Below are positions 4,774 to 44,386 of a stretch of DNA of 56,458 nucleotides, one piece after another; the stretch's first letter is position 1, and each line of letters opens with the position of its first letter. The notes beneath the pieces are model-generated. The model was given only the letters and a program-made list of their open reading frames with translations. It made no database searches and was not told the DNA's origin. The translations under genes and the position numbers were made by a program. This stretch comes from Caryophanales bacterium (GTDB lineage: Bacteria; Bacillota_I; Bacilli_A; RF39; UBA660): NCBI GenBank assembly GCA_016282375.1, contig JAEEKI010000006.1, positions 1 through 56,458 on the forward strand, written 5' to 3'.

Positions 4774-4805
4774 AATCTAATTTCACCTTTCGGCAAAATT
4801 AGATT
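4774..4805 (-). terminator. strong intrinsic terminator after the 4858-6000 gene
   Basis: Ten-base stem AATCTAATTT / AAATTAGATT with a 12-base loop, followed on the minus strand by seven T. It isolates the surface-protein gene from the GDPD gene. Confidence 0.85.
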
Positions 4806-4819
4806 CAAGATATTAAGAT
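4806..4819 (-). repeat. 3' flanking tag, copy 1 (ATCTTAATATCTTG)
   Basis: Fourteen bases, read on the minus strand, 38 bp after the stop codon of the surface-protein gene. An identical copy lies 35 bp after the stop of the related gene at 40628-41743, and similarity continues another 11 bases (23 of 25 in total). The tag is separated from the stop by GC-rich DNA containing the palindrome CTCCGGAG. Its role is unknown. Confidence 0.55.
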
Positions 4820-4820
4820 G

Positions 4821-5060
4821 CCTCCGGAGCGGCCAGCGAGCATGACGACTATCTCAACTAATCCCACGATCCACAATCGGCATGGCCAAGCGAATCGACT
4901 TCACAGCACACCCTCCCAGAGTGATCGCTACAGTTTACATAGCCGTAGGTGTCCACTACACAGCCGAGGTTGCCTACATTGCAGTTAGCGCTGTTGTCGT
5001 TAGCGTCGCAATCATTATTGATATCGACGGTTATTCCCGCATCGATAAACGCTTGGTAAA
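4821..5060. other. GC-rich anomalous segment spanning the 3' end of a surface-protein gene
   Basis: Hand counts give 24/40 GC at 4821-4860, 34/60 at 4861-4920, 30/60 at 4921-4980 and 29/60 at 4981-5040, against 18/60 at 5101-5160 in the same gene. The change is abrupt, near codons for AFIDAGI. In the coding direction the segment uses many NNC codons (GAC, AAC, AGC, TGC, GGC), unlike its neighbours. It encodes the Cys-rich tail and runs about 37 bases past the stop. Recombination with foreign DNA and adenine-targeted diversification are both compatible. Confidence 0.7.
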
Positions 5061-6000
5061 TTGCTTGCTTGGCACTGGCTTGTTGTTCTAATGTTAAAGT
5101 ACTATTTAATGTATGTCCACTTAAGCCATATTGGGTATATGGTTGACTTAAACATATTTCATGTCCCTGAATAGTTCCACATGCATAGTACTCACTACTA
5201 TCTTGCCCTATATATACATTATGTCCTGTTGCTGTTCCACTACTTTGTAATGTTCCTCCGTAATTTGGATGTGTATATAAAGGTTCCATTTGTCCGGTAT
5301 TATCATTCAATGTTGATAGTGCAAACCAGTAACTTGTTGGTCCTGATGGACTTGCTGTTCCTGCTATACATGAGACATTGGCTACCTTAAATTTACCGGC
5401 ATATGTTTTCCCTGATAATGTACTTTGATCTGCATTTACATTATAAAACTTACTTGTGAGTGTCCATACAGCCGTACTTGTTGCACTACCTATTCCATCA
5501 ATTTGTGCACCACTTACAACGGTCGCTGCATAATTCGTATATGTTAAAGTTGATAAATCTGTTTCATTTTTAATATTGTTGGTTCCTTCATTTACATGCG
5601 CATTACTTGCAAGTGTACCTTGAATTACAAACTCATTATCAGTTACTCCACTTGTGTGGGCTAAATATTTATCACTACTTGTCCATTCATAGATAATATC
5701 ATAGGTGCATACCATACTATAATCAGTATTAGGTGTAAAGTTAACCGTTAAAGTTGTATTATTCTCCGCGGCTACATTACCTTGTTTAGCTTCTACCATA
5801 TTTGAGGCCGTGACATTAAGAAGCATTGCTCCACCTAAGGTATCAAACACCATATTATTTTGCTCCGTTACTGTATTGGCATTTACCACATTTGTAATAT
5901 TTAAATTGCCAGTTGCAAAATAGGCGTATGTTGCACCAATTACTACAGCAAGTAATGTAATTATAGCAATTACTATTAAAATGATATTGTTATTTTTCAT
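4858..6000 (-). CDS. SipW-type surface protein, paralogue 2 (long form, GC-rich tail)
   Basis: A 380-residue predicted secreted protein. ATG 6000 follows AGGTGA at 5 bases; the upstream in-frame extension has no such site. Residues 1-35 form a SipW-type signal (MKNNNIILIV to GATYAYFATG). Residues about 36-220 are the family core, with CTYDIIYEW and a closing KVANVSC. Residues about 225-325 are a second domain shared with 25583 and 40628: SYWF, GGTLQSSG, GHNVYIGQ, GHEICLSQPYTQYGLSGHT, ASAKQAIYQAFIDAG. The last 55 residues are Cys-rich (about seven Cys) and diverged. The 3' end is GC-rich (see 4821-5060). It is monocistronic with a strong terminator. The function is not recognised; an adhesin or fibre subunit is inference. 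Confidence 0.75.
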   Translation of the reverse strand: MKNNNIILIVIAIITLLAVVIGATYAYFATGNLNITNVVNANTVTEQNNMVFDTLGGAMLLNVTASNMVEAKQGNVAAENNTTLTVNFTPNTDYSMVCTYDIIYEWTSSDKYLAHTSGVTDNEFVIQGTLASNAHVNEGTNNIKNETDLSTLTYTNYAATVVSGAQIDGIGSATSTAVWTLTSKFYNVNADQSTLSGKTYAGKFKVANVSCIAGTASPSGPTSYWFALSTLNDNTGQMEPLYTHPNYGGTLQSSGTATGHNVYIGQDSSEYYACGTIQGHEICLSQPYTQYGLSGHTLNSTLTLEQQASAKQAIYQAFIDAGITVDINNDCDANDNSANCNVGNLGCVVDTYGYVNCSDHSGRVCCEVDSLGHADCGSWD

Positions 6001-25582: not shown

Positions 25583-26701
25583 TTAGTTTCCACAATCAGA
25601 TTGACCATTTGATAAGATTTCGCAAAAACTAGATGGTCCATAACAACTAATAGTACCATTAGTTGCAAAGATTCTACAATTATGATTATTATCAATCATA
25701 CAATAAACAGAATCGGCTCTAGCACTACAATCTTCATCGATGTCAATTGGTATTCCAGCATCAATAAAAGTTTGATATACTGCTTGTTTGGCACTGGCTT
25801 GTTGTGCTGATGTTAATAAACAACTACCGTCATTACATGTTGTATGTCCACTTAATCCGTATTGGGTATATGGTTGACTGAAACATACTTCATGTCCATA
25901 GTAATTCATACATATAAAATACTTATTATCATTTTGTCCCATATATACATCTTGGCCAGTTGCGCTTCCATTACTTTGTAATATTCCTCCATATTCTGGA
26001 AATTCATACACTCCACCTATAATAAACCAATAACTTGTTGGACCTGATGGACTTGCTGTTCCTGCTACACATGAAACATTTGCTACTCTAAAATTACCGG
26101 TATATGTTTTATTTGATAAAGCGCTTTGATCTTCTTCAACATTATAAAAACTACTTGTGAGTGTCCATACGGCTGTACTTGTTGCACTACCTATTCCATC
26201 AATTTGCGCTCCACTTACGACCGTCGCAGCATAATTGGTATATGTTAGAGTAGAAAGGTCCTTTTCAATATAAATAATATTTGCTCCTTCATTTACATGT
26301 GAATTACTAGTTAGTGTACCTTGAATGGTAAATTCATTTGAGGTTACCCCACTTGTATGAGTAGTATATTTATCACTACTGGTCCATTCATACACAATAT
26401 CATATGTACATACCATACTATACTCCGTATTTGGAGTAAAATTAACAGTTAAAGTTGTATTATTTTGAGCGGCTCTAGTGCCACTTAGAGTTTCTGACAT
26501 ATTTGCAGCTGTTATGTTAAGGCTCATTGCCCCGCCTAAGGTATCAAATACCATGTTATTTGCTTCCGTTACCGTATTGGCATTTACTACATTTGTGATA
26601 TTTAAATTACCGGTGGCAAAATACGCATATGTCGCTCCAATGATAAAAGTTAATAATGTAACTATAGCTATGGCTATTAATATAATGTTATTTCTTTTCA
26701 C
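25583..26701 (-). CDS. SipW-type surface protein, paralogue 3 (long form)
   Basis: A 372-residue predicted secreted protein. The start is GTG 26701, 5 bases after AGGAG. The signal runs from MKRNNIILIA to GATYAYFATG. The family core (NNMVFDTLGGAM, CTYDIVYEW, SGAQIDGIGSATS, RVANVSC) is followed by the second domain (SYWFIIGG, GHEVCFSQPYTQYGLSGHT, ASAKQAVYQTFIDAG). The Cys-rich tail (DCSARADSVYC and onward to SDCGN) aligns with the tail of 4858-6000 by Cys spacing and by NGTISC against YGYVNC, but is normal AT-rich DNA. It does not carry the 3' flanking tag. Monocistronic and placed just upstream of the rimP operon. Function unknown. Confidence 0.75.
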   Translation of the reverse strand: MKRNNIILIAIAIVTLLTFIIGATYAYFATGNLNITNVVNANTVTEANNMVFDTLGGAMSLNITAANMSETLSGTRAAQNNTTLTVNFTPNTEYSMVCTYDIVYEWTSSDKYTTHTSGVTSNEFTIQGTLTSNSHVNEGANIIYIEKDLSTLTYTNYAATVVSGAQIDGIGSATSTAVWTLTSSFYNVEEDQSALSNKTYTGNFRVANVSCVAGTASPSGPTSYWFIIGGVYEFPEYGGILQSNGSATGQDVYMGQNDNKYFICMNYYGHEVCFSQPYTQYGLSGHTTCNDGSCLLTSAQQASAKQAVYQTFIDAGIPIDIDEDCSARADSVYCMIDNNHNCRIFATNGTISCYGPSSFCEILSNGQSDCGN

Positions 26702-29648: not shown

Positions 29649-30701
29649 TTAATCGTTGTTTCTTAAAAATGGTGGAATCTCATAATCAGTGTCTAAAATC
29701 TCTGGTGTTTTTCTCTTAGGGATTTCATTACCAAATAAAGCATCAGAACCAACTTCATCATCAAAGCCAGTCGCAATTACTGTAACAATAACTTCATCTT
29801 GAAGATTTTCATTTTTAATAGCACCGAAGATTATATTTACGTCGCTATTAGCAGCTTCCCGAACTGTTTCAACAGCATCTTCGATTTCAAATAAGGTTAA
29901 GTTGTTTCCACCAGTTACGTTAACAATAGCGTTCTTTGCACCTTCGATAGTTTCCTCCAGTAAGGAATTGGATACCGCTTGACGTGCAGCTTCGATAGAA
30001 CGATTTTCTCCAGCAGCACAACCAATACCAATAATGGCCGTTCCACTTTTTTCCATAACCGTTTTAACATCCGCAAAGTCTAGGTTGATTACTCCTGTTA
30101 CGGCAATCAAATCGGAAATTGATTGAACACCTCTATGAAGAACATTATCTACTTCTTTAAATGCTTCATCAAATGAAGTTGTTTTATCAATAATATCTCT
30201 TAAACGATCATTTGGAATAACAATCAATGTATCAACATGTTTACGAAGTTCCTCTAGACCAACAAGAGCATTTTCCATTCTTCTTTTACCTTCGAATTTG
30301 AAAGGCTTTGTAACAATACCAACCGTTAAAGCACCAAGTTCTTGAGCAATTTCTGCAATAATTGGTGCAGCACCTGTTCCAGTGCCTCCACCAAGACCAC
30401 AAGCAACAAAAACCATATCAGCACCTGTTAAGGCTTCTTCAAGTTCAGCTTTACTCTCTAACGCTGCCGCTCTACCAACTTCAGGATTAGCACCAGCACC
30501 ACGACCACCTGTAATGTTTTTACCAATTTGTATTTTATTTGGAGATAGTGAAGCATTTAAAACTTGTAAATCAGTATTAACAACAAAGAATTCAACACTT
30601 TGAACACCTTCAGTTATCATCCTATTTACAGCATTACATCCGCCACCGCCAACACCCACAACTTTTATCTTAGCGATTTGATCCATCAATAAATCTGACA
30701 T
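29649..30701 (-). CDS. ftsZ: cell division GTPase FtsZ
   Basis: A 350-residue tubulin-like GTPase that forms the Z-ring. Motifs are [12 protein letters not shown], the tubulin signature [15 protein letters not shown] and [11 protein letters not shown]. The linker is short and the C-terminal peptide EIPPFLRN, which binds FtsA and other tethers, is present. AGGAGG precedes ATG 30701. Co-transcribed with ftsA (9-bp gap). Confidence 0.97.
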
Positions 30702-39883: not shown

Positions 39884-39903
39884 CTAACATTCTACAATGT
39901 TAG
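39884..39903 (-). terminator. terminator after the five-gene surface-protein cluster
   Basis: Perfect 8-base stem CTAACATT / AATGTTAG, loop CTAC, followed by eight T on the minus strand. Confidence 0.85.
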
Positions 39904-40504
39904 CTTTAAAAACTGCTTCATAAGTTTTATAATCGTTTATATATTGATAATCATCCTTTAACCACTTAAAGGTTATCTTAGCTTGCCAATAATCAATTTT
40001 TTGATGGTTCTTAGTAGTATTAATAACATGTAAATATTCAGTTGAATTAAAACTAACCGGTATTTCAATATCGCCTGTCAAAGTAGTTATATCCATTTCG
40101 CTAATCACAGGTTCATAATCAACACCATTATCAGATTTAGATACATCCAAAACTAGTTCAGGAATTCCTTCGACAGTATATGAAAAAACTTGTTCTTCAG
40201 GAAGTTTCATCTTTAAAAGATAACAATATTTAGTTTGGGGACTAGTTGTATCCAAGATAACATTCAGACTACCAGTACCTGATACGTCATGACCAACACC
40301 AATCGCAAAATTAGAGGCATCAGCTACAAATTTGGCATTTGTTTGCGCAAATCGTAAAGTATCAACGCCTTTGGAAGTCACGTCAACTTTAAAGGAACCA
40401 TCATACATTTCTTGTACAGAAAAATAAGCGTAGGTTGATAACACTACTGTTAATAATATAGTAATTATAGCAATTACAATTAATATAACATTATTATTTT
40501 TCAT
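39884..40504 (-). CDS. SipW-type surface protein, paralogue 4 (short form)
   Basis: A 206-residue predicted secreted protein. ATG 40504 follows GAGG by 6 bases. The signal MKNNNVILIVIAIITILL to LSTYAYFSV is nearly identical at the start to that of 4858-6000, but the rest is strongly diverged: KGVDTLRFAQ, KYCYLLKMKL, a beta-rich body and an end at KANIVEC. The last residue is Cys, in the position where long forms continue into a second domain. Last gene of the 39884-44386 cluster. Function unknown. Confidence 0.7.
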   Translation of the reverse strand: MKNNNVILIVIAIITILLTVVLSTYAYFSVQEMYDGSFKVDVTSKGVDTLRFAQTNAKFVADASNFAIGVGHDVSGTGSLNVILDTTSPQTKYCYLLKMKLPEEQVFSYTVEGIPELVLDVSKSDNGVDYEPVISEMDITTLTGDIEIPVSFNSTEYLHVINTTKNHQKIDYWQAKITFKWLKDDYQYINDYKTYEAVFKANIVEC

Positions 40505-40578
40505 TTCATTCCTCAACTTTTCTTATTCTTTCTCCCATAAGATTTCCATTATTTTTAAGCTATTCATAAAATTAAATG

Positions 40579-40592
40579 CAAGATATTAAGAT
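40579..40592 (-). repeat. 3' flanking tag, copy 2 (ATCTTAATATCTTG)
   Basis: Identical to the tag at 4806-4819, here 35 bp after the stop of the 40628-41743 gene. It is preceded by a partial direct repeat (ATCTTAAAT) and followed by ATTTAATTTT, also similar to copy 1. No hairpin terminator follows here. Confidence 0.55.
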
Positions 40593-40627
40593 ATTTAAGA
40601 TAATACACACACAACGGGCCACTAGTA

Positions 40628-41743
40628 TTAGCCGTGTACATCACCACATGCTGCCTCATTATTAATTCCAGTAAAACAGTATTCATGTAATGTGTAATCA
40701 ACACTTTCTAAATCACCATCATAATTAATCTGCAAACGTATATAACCTACATTTTCTATATTAATCTCACAAAAGACATTAGTACCATTTTGGGTACAAT
40801 TGTCGTTTAAATTCAATGAAATTCCTGCTTCTGTAAAGACTTGATATAATGCTTGTTTGGCACTTGCTTGTTGAGCACTTGTAAAGTTAGTATTTAAAGT
40901 ATGCCCTTCAAGGCCGTATTGGGTATATGGTTGGCTTAAACATGCTTCATGTCCCTGAATAGTTGCACATGTAAAATATTTACGACTATTTTGGCCTATA
41001 TACACATTATGTCCCGTTGCCGCACCGCTTGTTTGCAAAGTTCCCCCTGTTTCTGGATGTACATAATCGGTACCTTTTTGCGTTGGAAACCAATAACCGG
41101 TTGGATGATATCTCTCAACACCGCAATTAACATTGCCAACACTGACAACACCGCTATACTGCTTGTTCTTTTGACTATTTTGTGACAAATCAAGATTATA
41201 AAAAGCCAGAGTAATTGTATATGTTTGTGTAGTTAAAGTTCCATTTGATGTGATGGTTAAATCACCAGCAATACTACTGCCATTAGTAATGGTATCTATA
41301 TTTGCTTCATTCATAATAGTTGTATTAGAACTATTAACCATTTTTAAAGTTAATTCTTTGGCACTACCTCTTCCACTAGAAGGTGTATATGCTGTAGAGC
41401 TAGTTTCATTCCAAATAAAATTAAATGTACAACTGGCCTGTCTTTCTGCAGATCCGCCTATCATAGTTACGTCAAAAGTTTGAGTAGAGCTTACGGTTGC
41501 TGTCGTGTTATTAGCATCTCCTTGAATCATATCAAAACCAGATACCACTACTCCCAAGTTACCATTAGGGACAGCAGTAAATATAGGTGTGGCTGCATCA
41601 CTAACACCCACAGAGACATTCATTATGGTATTACTTGTTACATTGACAGTAAAAAAAGCATACGTAAAAGAAAATACTGTTGTTAACAATATAAAAATAG
41701 ATAAAAATATAAAAATTATGTTTTCCTTATTCATACTTGTCAT
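40628..41743 (-). CDS. SipW-type surface protein, paralogue 5 (long form)
   Basis: A 371-residue predicted secreted protein; AGGA precedes ATG 41743. The signal (NKENIIFIFLSIF to SFTYAFFTV) varies from the other members, and the core is diverged (ASCTFNFIWNE, closing VGNVNC). The second domain is well conserved: GYWF, GGTLQTSGAATGHNVYIGQN, GHEACLSQPYTQYGLEGHT, ASAKQALYQVFTEAG. The tail has fewer Cys (NCTQNGTNVFC, HEYC, AACG). Together with the core divergence, this makes the second domain the more constant part of the family. Function unknown. Confidence 0.75.
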   Translation of the reverse strand: MTSMNKENIIFIFLSIFILLTTVFSFTYAFFTVNVTSNTIMNVSVGVSDAATPIFTAVPNGNLGVVVSGFDMIQGDANNTTATVSSTQTFDVTMIGGSAERQASCTFNFIWNETSSTAYTPSSGRGSAKELTLKMVNSSNTTIMNEANIDTITNGSSIAGDLTITSNGTLTTQTYTITLAFYNLDLSQNSQKNKQYSGVVSVGNVNCGVERYHPTGYWFPTQKGTDYVHPETGGTLQTSGAATGHNVYIGQNSRKYFTCATIQGHEACLSQPYTQYGLEGHTLNTNFTSAQQASAKQALYQVFTEAGISLNLNDNCTQNGTNVFCEINIENVGYIRLQINYDGDLESVDYTLHEYCFTGINNEAACGDVHG

Positions 41744-41821
41744 CTATATTCCTACTCTTTATTATAATATCACATCTTACTTAATAGTTTCAATCAATAT
41801 TGAAAATTTTTAATAAAAAAA

Positions 41822-41836
41822 CGACCATATTGGTCG
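41822..41836 (-). terminator. terminator after paralogue 6
   Basis: Six-base GC-containing stem CGACCA / TGGTCG with three-base loop, extended by A/T pairs and followed by seven T on the minus strand. Confidence 0.75.
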
Positions 41837-41857
41837 ATTTTATTAATATAAAGATAA

Positions 41858-42514
41858 CTAACAAACTACAGAATCAACATAGAATTTAATCTTCCAAGTT
41901 TTTCCTGCATTACCGCTTTGACTACGATTGAAGTTATAGAATCTTGTAACAATTGTAAAATCTTGAACTGTTGCAGTACTTTCACTATTATTAGTAATAG
42001 TAACACTACCTAAGTCTTGACGTGCAGCAGGATTTGTTGAATCAAAATCAATGAATTGAGTTTCAGAAGCAAGTGTTGTTGAATTTGCATCATTTGTAGT
42101 ATAAGTAACTTCATATGAGAACTCTTTATCAGTTGTTTGAAGTCCTTCAGTTTTTGCATAATCATCACTATTAGTATAATACTCATAGTATACATGATAT
42201 GTACAAGATAAAGACTCAGTCGTACCAGCAGTAAAGTTTACTTTAAAATTTTCAGTTGTTGTTTCAGATGTTGCTGCAAGATTCCCTTGTGCAGTTCCAC
42301 GTGCTTCAACCATGTTTGCTGCTGTTACATTCATAACAATTTCAGCACCAGTAGCAATAAATGAACTACTAGATGAAGCAGTTGTAGCAGTTAAATTAGC
42401 TACGTTTTCTATATTAGTATTACTTGCGAAATATGCAAATGTTGCTCCAATAACAGCAACAAGTAAAGTTGCTACAGCAATTACTGTTAGTAATAACGTA
42501 TTCCTCTTTTCCAC
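41858..42514 (-). CDS. SipW-type surface protein, paralogue 6 (short form, TasA-like)
   Basis: A 218-residue predicted secreted protein with GTG start 42514 after AAAGGAG. The signal EKRNTLLLTVIAVATLLVAV to GATFAYFAS is the most TasA-like in the window. The core has NVTAANMVEARG, SLSCTYHVYYEYY and ends in KIKFYVDSVVC, with Cys as the last residue. It has its own terminator directly after the stop and is Thr/Ser/Asn-rich, like major fibre subunits. I infer that this may be the abundant subunit of the cluster. Confidence 0.72.
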   Translation of the reverse strand: MEKRNTLLLTVIAVATLLVAVIGATFAYFASNTNIENVANLTATTASSSSSFIATGAEIVMNVTAANMVEARGTAQGNLAATSETTTENFKVNFTAGTTESLSCTYHVYYEYYTNSDDYAKTEGLQTTDKEFSYEVTYTTNDANSTTLASETQFIDFDSTNPAARQDLGSVTITNNSESTATVQDFTIVTRFYNFNRSQSGNAGKTWKIKFYVDSVVC

Positions 42515-42595
42515 TATTTGTTATCTCCTTTCTATTATTAATAATAACATATTTAATAATCATTAATCAAGTATTTTCACTAGATTTTTGCTTTT

Positions 42596-43270
42596 TTAAC
42601 AGTTGATATTGGCTGCAGATAAATGGGCCAGTAAACTTTTACCTAACAGACTATTTTGATTTCCCGGTGTGGTATAAAAATTGACAATAAAATTCCATGT
42701 TACTGTTGTTCCTGCAACGGTATTAGAATAAATATTTGCTTCGCTAACAACGGTGGCTTTACGCCCTATTGTACCCTGTGTACCAGTCCAAGATAATGTT
42801 GATAAATCACGTTCTGTAACATTTTTAGATGTATAATCATAACTACTGTACGTATCTCCACTAGCGCTAGCCGTGGCAGCAATAGACAATTCATAAGGAT
42901 AGTTAGCTGTTAGTGACATTGATGGCGATATATACTGGTCTGTACTATCCCATATAAATTGGATATCATATGTACATTCAAGGGCTTGACCCGCAATTGG
43001 TGACTTAAAATTAACAATCAAATTACCTGTACTATTTGCAACAGGTGTACTTGAAGCAACAACCATATTTACCAAACCAACGGATAAATTTATTTGATCA
43101 TTCGAATAAGCTGTAAATGTGGCCCGTGATTCTGGTATACCAGTGTTTAAATTAGCAACGTTAGTTACATTCAAATTACCAACAGTAAAGAAAGCATAGG
43201 TTGCCGAAGTGATTAAAACAAAGACCACTATAATGGTTATAACGTTTAGAATCATACTTTTCTTCTTCAT
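42596..43270 (-). CDS. SipW-type surface protein, paralogue 7 (short form)
   Basis: A 224-residue predicted secreted protein. ATG 43270 is 5 bases after AGGTGA. The signal KKKSMILNVITIIVVFVLI to SATYAFFTVGNLNVTNV resembles the family start; the core has LECTYDIQFIWDSTDQY and ERDLSTLSWTG, and ends HLSAANINC with terminal Cys. It follows the 43280 gene by 9 bp, so the two are co-transcribed. Function unknown. Confidence 0.72.
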   Translation of the reverse strand: MKKKSMILNVITIIVVFVLITSATYAFFTVGNLNVTNVANLNTGIPESRATFTAYSNDQINLSVGLVNMVVASSTPVANSTGNLIVNFKSPIAGQALECTYDIQFIWDSTDQYISPSMSLTANYPYELSIAATASASGDTYSSYDYTSKNVTERDLSTLSWTGTQGTIGRKATVVSEANIYSNTVAGTTVTWNFIVNFYTTPGNQNSLLGKSLLAHLSAANINC

Positions 43271-43279
43271 GAGTCTCAC

Positions 43280-44386
43280 CTACGTTGCCTTAGAAATAAC
43301 CACTTGATTATTGGCTGCTAATTTTAGTTTTATATTTGGTATCGTTGTTAATTCAAAACGGTCAGCAGCATAAACTACATATCCGGCTGGCGTTGTGTAA
43401 GTGCCTGAAGCGGTATGATTTGAATCGTTTGTAAGTGAATTACTTGGGTATTTTAATATTTGATAAACAGTAGTAAATCTAGCATACGCTCGTGTTTGAA
43501 GCCACGATCCAGAAGTATTACTTGTCGTTGATGCAGTATATGGCTGAACAGACCCAGTTGGATAGGTAGCTGTTTGAATTGCTGTACTTAGCGACGTAGA
43601 ATATGTGGTATCACCATTTATAACATTCAAAACCCATCTACCCATTGGCACGTTTGAAAGCGTATATGCTCCATTACTATCAGTGGTGGCCGTTATCATG
43701 CCGTGATTAAGAGAAATTGTAGCTCCGGCAATCGGATTATCCGCAGTATCATACAAAATACCACTTATATTATTAAAGACGGTGTTCTTGATTGGATATT
43801 GATATACTATTACAGCAAAATCAGTAGGATTTCCCTCAAAGACATCAGCGGCTTCAAGATCACCCCATAATTTAATAGCTAATTTTGTACTAGTAGTGGT
43901 AGAATTTAAAATTCCTAAATAAGCTATATAATATGACGTACCATAGTTTTTACTACTGGCAGAAATATGTAAATCAGCTATAGGAGCTGGACCTGCTAGT
44001 GGTGTAGATGATATGTTATTGCTTCCATCAAAACTATATATTGCATATCTTACATATTCCATCGGCAAATTAGTAACACTGACAGAATTTCCAGAATAGC
44101 AAAAATATAAATAATAATAAGTGTCGTAACCTGTTGGCTTATTAATTGTAATGGTGCTATATGTATTTTGGTTCATTCCATCCTCATCACTTAAAAAATA
44201 CATTCCTTGATTTACTAAATTAGTATAAGTAACTGTATAATTCATATTAGTAGTCGTAAGTTGTGCAGTATTACCACTTATTTTACTTCTGGTCATGAAA
44301 GAATAAGACACACTAAAAGAAAGGCTCATAAAAGATACGAGCGCTAAAACGATGACAACAGTAAGCATATGTCTTGTACTCTTCAT
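43280..44386 (-). CDS. secreted protein with carboxypeptidase-regulatory-like domain, first gene of cluster
   Basis: A 368-residue predicted secreted protein. The N-terminal hydrophobic segment ends SFSVSYSFMTRSK, a loose SipW-type site. Residues about 40-205 are beta-rich and unrelated to the other paralogues. From about 207, NISGILYDTADNPIAGATIS and TTDSNGAYTLSNVPMGRWVL match the carboxypeptidase regulatory-like (CnaB-type) beta-sandwich, common in adhesins and fibre accessory proteins. The remaining C-terminus is Thr/Ser-rich with no sortase LPxTG. As first gene of the cluster it may encode the tip or anchor (inference). Confidence 0.7.
   Translation of the reverse strand: MKSTRHMLTVVIVLALVSFMSLSFSVSYSFMTRSKISGNTAQLTTTNMNYTVTYTNLVNQGMYFLSDEDGMNQNTYSTITINKPTGYDTYYYLYFCYSGNSVSVTNLPMEYVRYAIYSFDGSNNISSTPLAGPAPIADLHISASSKNYGTSYYIAYLGILNSTTTSTKLAIKLWGDLEAADVFEGNPTDFAVIVYQYPIKNTVFNNISGILYDTADNPIAGATISLNHGMITATTDSNGAYTLSNVPMGRWVLNVINGDTTYSTSLSTAIQTATYPTGSVQPYTASTTSNTSGSWLQTRAYARFTTVYQILKYPSNSLTNDSNHTASGTYTTPAGYVVYAADRFELTTIPNIKLKLAANNQVVISKAT

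Follow-up and report, generated by a model that had tools for sequence, protein, structure and literature searches.

A cysteine-rich gene tail with the features of a diversity-generating retroelement variable region, repeated across a small draft genome of Caryophanales bacterium

We consider it very likely that a GC-rich gene end of Caryophanales bacterium is the variable region (VR) of a diversity-generating retroelement (DGR) which acts in trans on many targets (about nineteen paralogous surface-protein genes) and which diversifies an unusual scaffold. The DGR is strongly inferred but unproven, because searches of the 85%-complete assembly revealed neither a reverse transcriptase nor Avd nor a template. 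The observations comprise the copies of the segment, their codon pattern, the signals located 3' of them, controls inside the same genome, and DGR machinery in congeners. The segment is part of a 56,458 nt stretch of DNA (contig JAEEKI010000006.1 of assembly GCA_016282375.1), which is referred to as "the window" throughout. A previous sequence-only reading had offered two explanations for an abrupt GC jump at 4821-5060: a DGR variable region or a segment gained by recombination from a higher-GC source. The first is strongly supported by the NNC codon pattern, an A-poor block, GRNA-loop hairpins, and the DGR machinery of congeners.

The draft genome has 1,083,921 bases in 24 contigs, is 84.97% complete, and has a stated contamination of 1.08%. 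The GC jump is real: block 4801-5040 has the highest GC (0.508) among all 240-base blocks of the window, the runner-up (30241-30480) having 0.425 and the two flanking blocks 0.254 and 0.354. The GC-rich stretch had also been described as running past the stop codon, and it indeed covers the 3' end of CDS 4858-6000 and continues to about 4821.

The target gene (4858..6000, minus strand) codes for an exported protein of 380 aa with an N-terminal signal, a stalk, and a Cys-rich variable tail, as delineated from the ORF, its translation, and an alignment with 15 paralogues. The start of the protein resembles that of exported proteins. It matched no Pfam, NCBIfam, or PHROG family, and a sequence search against the PDB returned no relative (best E 0.21). 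The VR (4850..5007, minus strand), as delimited by column statistics over 18 distinct copies, comprises the NNC codons of the Cys-rich tail and extends through the stop codon. The ancestral stop codon TAG (4864..4866, minus strand) is TGG in the window copy, so that the reading frame is closed by the following stop (4858-4860). Three features follow on the same strand: an A-poor GC-rich block (4821..4849) with a GC of 0.73 in the window copy according to per-copy base counts, located where DGR targets have the initiation-of-mutagenic-homing (IMH) sequence; a near-invariant element CATCTTAATATCTTGAATCTAATTTT (4795..4820), found at 19 places, with a mean entropy of 0.09 over 26 columns; and a hairpin (4774..4805) identified by DNA folding, which has a 14-pair stem including two G-T pairs and a GAAA loop of the GRNA type at 4788-4791.

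A search of the genome with 4780-5110 gave 43 matches to E 10, among them 26 at E 1e-8 or better. Inspection of the stretches around the matches revealed that the tail is followed by the 3' element CATCTTAATATCTTGAATC at 19 places of the 1.08 Mb draft genome, a repetition which had escaped the sequence-only reading; in all 19 copies the VR is found at the 3' end of a gene and stops at or shortly past the stop codon. A profile of the C-terminal module (A2) returned 55 genome matches, 41 of them over 100 bits. Among 42 distinct tails, 16 are full-length and carry the 3' element (GC 0.43-0.54), 22 have a GC of 0.29-0.41 and are devoid of an intact 3' element (one, at window position 40628, has a degenerate form), and the remaining four are contig-end pieces. 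The low-GC paralogue tails served as controls inside the same genome. Because GC is 0.43-0.54 in the genes with a 3' element and 0.29-0.41 in the low-GC group, the GC-rich tail goes beyond chance.

Two such controls are located in the window, both on the minus strand. Paralogue 25583..26701 has no cassette; its Cys tail is AT-rich (GC 0.33) with a similar Cys layout, as had been stated in the sequence-only reading, and has no 3' element. Paralogue 40628..41743 has an AT-rich tail with a degenerate 3' element past the stop and is perhaps a decayed former target; a GC-richer bit accompanies the degenerate copy at 40570-40630, 3' of the stop codon. Five adjacent minus-strand ORFs at 39884-44386 start with similar signal segments and form a cluster of genes for exported proteins.

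The DNA alignment of the tails has 23 rows, 18 of which were used in the codon, column, mismatch, and stop counts. Omitted were three contig-end fragments, the 25583 paralogue, and L011, the VR of which is the same as that of L021_7600. The comparison of codon positions excluded members with less than 150 aa as well as the C16 contig-end fragment. The NNC codons that had been noticed in the window tail are present across the 18 distinct copies and proved to be the decisive feature: variation falls on the first two codon positions, and the third is preferentially C, which is the opposite of what is seen upstream in the same genes. Framework codons for Cys, Gly, Val, and Asp are almost fixed in the 18-copy alignment. 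In the 12 least drifted copies, codon 5001-4999 is GAC, CGC, AGC, AAC, TAC, TTC, or TCC, and codon 4935-4933 is TAC, GAC, AAC, TTC, ATC, or CGC.

This pattern is evident in several statistics. In the tails, pairs of genes differ at codon positions 1/2/3 with frequencies of 0.374/0.389/0.323; for the upstream parts of these 16 genes, the values are 0.197/0.197/0.342. When a codon pair differs in its amino acid, the third base is kept in 63.9% of cases in the tails, compared to 45.5% upstream and 38.7% in the 22 paralogue tails; the corresponding frequencies of C at the third position are 0.41, 0.10, and 0.15. Column entropy at position 1 or 2 exceeds that at position 3 in 31 of 49 tail codons, with the reverse in 13 (one-sided Wilcoxon p 0.03); upstream, the counts are 7 and 25 of 40 codons, which is significant in the opposite sense (p 9e-5).

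We also examined the 32 A-type columns (variable columns with an A content of 28% or higher); summed over these columns, the letter counts are A 276, G 147, T 91, and C 50. Against a leave-one-out consensus, the 18 copies mismatch at 306 of 593 A-type positions and at 124 of 1085 positions in conserved non-A columns; for the 12 copies with less than 12% non-A mismatches, the values are 200/394 and 45/718. These ratios are descriptive, the two column classes being defined by variability itself; the codon-phase contrast provides the independent test. Variation also reaches the ancestral stop codon: TAG is kept in 9 of the 17 copies with letters at this place and is a sense codon in the other 8, four of which (among them the window gene) have TGG; such genes end at a later in-frame stop.

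The data might be read as a plain paralogue family in which diversifying selection and gene conversion were at work and no retroelement was involved, the GC of the tails having been raised by GC-biased conversion. The family is indeed large (the 41 module matches mentioned above) and has mosaic 3' types. However, neither selection on the protein nor biased conversion fixes a third-base C while the first two bases span all four letters, and selection at the protein level offers no reason for a fixed C at a position where this genome rarely has one. That A is the commonest letter at the variable columns is also contrary to GC-biased conversion. We thus regard this explanation as very improbable.

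The DGR reading is further supported by the signals beyond the tail, which have the same order in each copy: A-poor GC-rich block, near-invariant element, hairpin. A block of 23-30 nt with 0-6 adenines and a GC of 0.47-0.73 is found past the VR in 18 of 18 rows; by analogy, this putative homing block occupies the IMH position of DGR targets. Guo et al. (2011) describe a homing block and a hairpin with a 7-10 bp stem and a GRNA loop, located 4-34 bp past the VR (PMC3240598). A perfect stem of at least 9 pairs with a 4-nt loop occurs in 9 of the 19 copies, and 8 of these 9 have GRNA loops (GACA, GATA); the other 10 copies deviate from this strict rule (perfect stem, 4-nt loop). Among the 21 controls scored, a stem of at least 8 pairs was seen only once, likewise with a GRNA loop. 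Two members were left out of the hairpin scoring for lack of downstream DNA. The hairpin of the window has a folding energy of -8.8 kcal/mol (z -4.25, 0/200 shuffles). It may double as a terminator, because a T run comes next in some copies. The palindrome CTCCGGAG, pointed out in the sequence-only reading, was located at 4822-4829 but is distinct from the conserved hairpin at 4774-4805. We rejected it as a functional hairpin; it is unconserved, most other copies being different at that place.

Beyond the hairpin, nine of the VR copies share a further block, about 50 nt long, which ends with GTAGGCACA or GTAGGAACA; an AGGCC-GGCC inverted repeat is present in five of these nine. The places concerned are L012 (2121-2087, minus strand), L013 (2715-2741), L014 (3030-3064), L015 (5204-5168, minus strand), L018 (9236-9202, minus strand), L020, L022, L024, and L017.

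The abrupt GC step might be attributed to horizontal transfer of the tail end from a higher-GC source, the second explanation raised in the sequence-only reading. It found no support. A distant blastn search with 621 bases against phage and plasmid records gave no match, and viral contigs contained neither a relative nor an exact copy of the 3' element. Furthermore, 19 divergent copies are built on one framework, and the GC would be accounted for by C-ended template codons and A-to-N change. A contig scan for outside relatives retrieved only two, L083 and L084, both from rumen MAGs of AT-rich Bacilli. We therefore consider transfer from such a source to be extremely unlikely. One of the two relatives, MAG Tb.RUG.7 (L083), carries a single variable-type tail in frame, followed by the same 3' element. 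The genome of Tb.RUG.7 has a DGR, which is aimed at another target; a template for the Cys tail was not found in this MAG.

An assembly artefact, in which the assembler misjoined repeated tails, is hardly conceivable either. The genome is a draft, and contigs break inside VRs (at the ends of C13, C16, C17, C20, and C21), but most tails are in frame within long contigs, the stated contamination is low (see above), and the same tail and 3' element occur in frame in a second MAG, Tb.RUG.7.

At the ends of contigs C13, C16, and C17 (L011, L015, L019, L021), two 5' and two 3' gene parts have an identical VR core, variable positions included, which would reflect a recent duplication or recombination between targets. 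This core was considered as a candidate template and rejected: it continues open gene frames, and 11 of its 32 A-type columns differ from A.

The sequence-only reading had suggested a search of the genome for a template repeat next to a reverse transcriptase. Neither was found in the assembly, which is only 85% complete: there was no match to PF00078 (RVT_1) and none to a profile of the congener enzymes at E up to 10, a profile search did not reveal Avd, an accessory protein which not all DGRs have, and no template repeat was detected. When a consensus template was compared to 386 genomes of the wider family, with up to two candidates per genome being scored, a match was obtained in this genome only. 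It is plausible that the template locus is missing from the assembly only, because 15% of the genome is absent and contigs break in VRs.

These negative results could also mean that the DGR is a fossil, i.e. that diversification was recent but reverse transcriptase and template have since been lost, the variety now being frozen or reshuffled by recombination among copies. Such a loss has a parallel in Treponema denticola isolates reported to have targets without a core DGR (PMC4891356), and the VR core which two gene pairs at contig ends have in common is what recombination or duplication would yield. In six of the 18 copies, mismatches amount to 13-37% at conserved non-A columns, and some of these look decayed; framework drift of up to 37% fits a fossil element. 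On the other hand, the mismatch rate in five copies is 0-5% at conserved non-A columns versus 34-56% at A-type columns, which argues for recent diversification, and the incompleteness of the assembly and its breaks inside VRs also weigh against a loss. We consider a fossil DGR unlikely and prefer a DGR whose core is located outside the assembled sequence.

DGR machinery was encountered in congeners. DGR-like reverse transcriptases score over the cut-off in four of nine congeners, and Avd matches were obtained in G004, G005, G006, and G009, three of which supplied the profile. The reverse transcriptase loci of G004 and G006 encode an Avd-like protein which matches PF22296 and NF033474 below the cut-offs, and a relative of this protein is encoded at the locus of G009. 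In G006, the Avd-like protein is preceded by a small protein with a weak MutS_I match. In G005, the reverse transcriptase itself has a MutS_I match near its C-terminus, and Avd matches are weak. Self-comparison of the G004 locus revealed a template/variable pair with all 17 of 17 differences at adenine. The corresponding values are 11/11 and 15/16 for two pairs from G006 (read on the other strand), 12/12 for G010, and 22/35 for G009, where the alignment exceeds the VR. For G005 (L076), no template/variable pair was among the matches listed. L029, L030, L031, and L034 are congener DGR loci; L029 has small MutS-domain-I-like proteins ahead of avd and the reverse transcriptase, and in L034 the reverse transcriptase has a C-terminal MutS_I match. 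In G010, the region downstream of the DGR reverse transcriptase gene contains a strong inverted repeat around TTTTGTCGGCGCCGACAAAA (L086, 2500-2558).

The targets of G004 share the stalk with the window family, and their VR is covered by a DUF6273 match below the threshold. The DUF6273-like domain in L073, L079, and L084 has a GC of 0.48-0.53 and a third-base C frequency of 0.46-0.49, and the Cys tail which follows this domain in L084 is AT-rich. L084 belongs to G011, and the reverse transcriptase coordinates of G011 and G004 are identical. In the genome analyzed here, five genes have the same domain before the Cys module, with a GC of 0.28-0.35 and a third-base C frequency of 0.00-0.10; one of the five, L022, bears a hypervariable Cys tail. 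Thus, one architecture is hypervariable on different domains in different congeners, the DUF6273-like domain there and the Cys tail here. We see an even chance that the DGR left a C-lectin-type domain for the adjoining C-terminal disulfide-rich strand tail and that this multiplied to about nineteen targets in 1.1 Mb. If so, massive targeted variation would have a second natural scaffold in this tail, and the genomes would directly document how a DGR switched from one target domain to another.

For the module (residues 258-380 of the window protein), a structure model based on five input sequences has a mean pLDDT of 83.6 and a pTM of 0.78. It predicts strands, a helix, and five short strands which bear the VR and its cysteines; disulfides in the Cys tail are predicted from the conserved cysteines. 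Foldseek returned nothing at E 0.001 or better for the module model. The best VIA-align Z was 4.7 with no C-lectin among the matches listed, a result which excludes neither a C-lectin nor a known fold. The model of the whole protein is poor (mean pLDDT 52.6), and its N-terminal matches reach Z values up to 7.0, a range which is common for the tool. According to the large survey of Roux et al. (2021), annotated DGR VRs systematically have C-lectin folds, and some uncharacterised VR domains are expected to be C-lectin variants (PMC8144416).

Taken as a DGR, the system would operate as follows. An AAC-rich template repeat, outside of the present assembly, would be copied by an adenine-misreading reverse transcriptase of this species, and the A-poor GC-rich block and the hairpin would direct the mutated cDNA to replace the 3' end of a target gene, presumably in trans and up to the present. 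With C as the last base of the template codons, only the first two codon bases would change, stop codons would be impossible there, and GC would rise; AAC altered at its first two bases can never become a stop. One template does not plainly fit all copies, because the GC-rich 3' block comes in several sequence types. The diversified piece would be a Cys-rich tail of ~55 residues. It is carried by an exported stalk protein, and therefore the cell would present a changing repertoire of tails with a presumed role in binding.

A Cys-rich tail with the marks of retrohoming would show that the DGR mechanism is not bound to the C-lectin fold, and a congener with the reciprocal arrangement makes the switch of target domain directly testable. 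About forty genes share one module in a very small genome, and about half of them are hypervariable, which prompts one to ask what the organism has to recognise or evade time and again. Our literature search, which covered few subscription papers, retrieved neither a Cys-rich DGR target nor such a domain switch in print. It is the Cys-rich scaffold and the domain switch which are unusual here; the number of targets is high for a genome of 1.1 Mb but is no record.

Several known systems are similar in part. The DGR of Bordetella phage BPP-1 likewise has its VR at the gene 3' end, a GC-rich homing block, and a short GRNA-loop hairpin, but its one target is a phage tail protein (PMC3240598); here, we find about nineteen cellular targets, hairpins that are partly imperfect, and neither template nor reverse transcriptase. 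Several remote targets in one genome are also reported for the DGR of Treponema denticola, where VRs differ mostly at template adenines; however, its two to seven target genes code for C-lectin-type lipoproteins (PMC4891356), compared to a Cys-rich tail on far more targets in a smaller genome. Remote DGR targets are also described for cyanobacteria (PMC7517822), and a survey lists one genome with 91 atypical template/variable pairs (PMC6642488). Thiohalocapsa PB-PSB1, with 21 VRs in 15 targets, has a similar number of VRs and action in trans on template-less targets, but it has nine DGR loci and conflict-system proteins (PMC10907252), whereas exported stalk proteins from a 1.1 Mb genome are concerned here. 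Also comparable are the tentaclins, DUF6273-like C-lectin DGR targets (PMC10743442), and the G004 targets, which have the exported stalk of the window family. The DUF6273-like domain in the present genome, however, is without the VR signature, which is instead found in the adjoining Cys tail.
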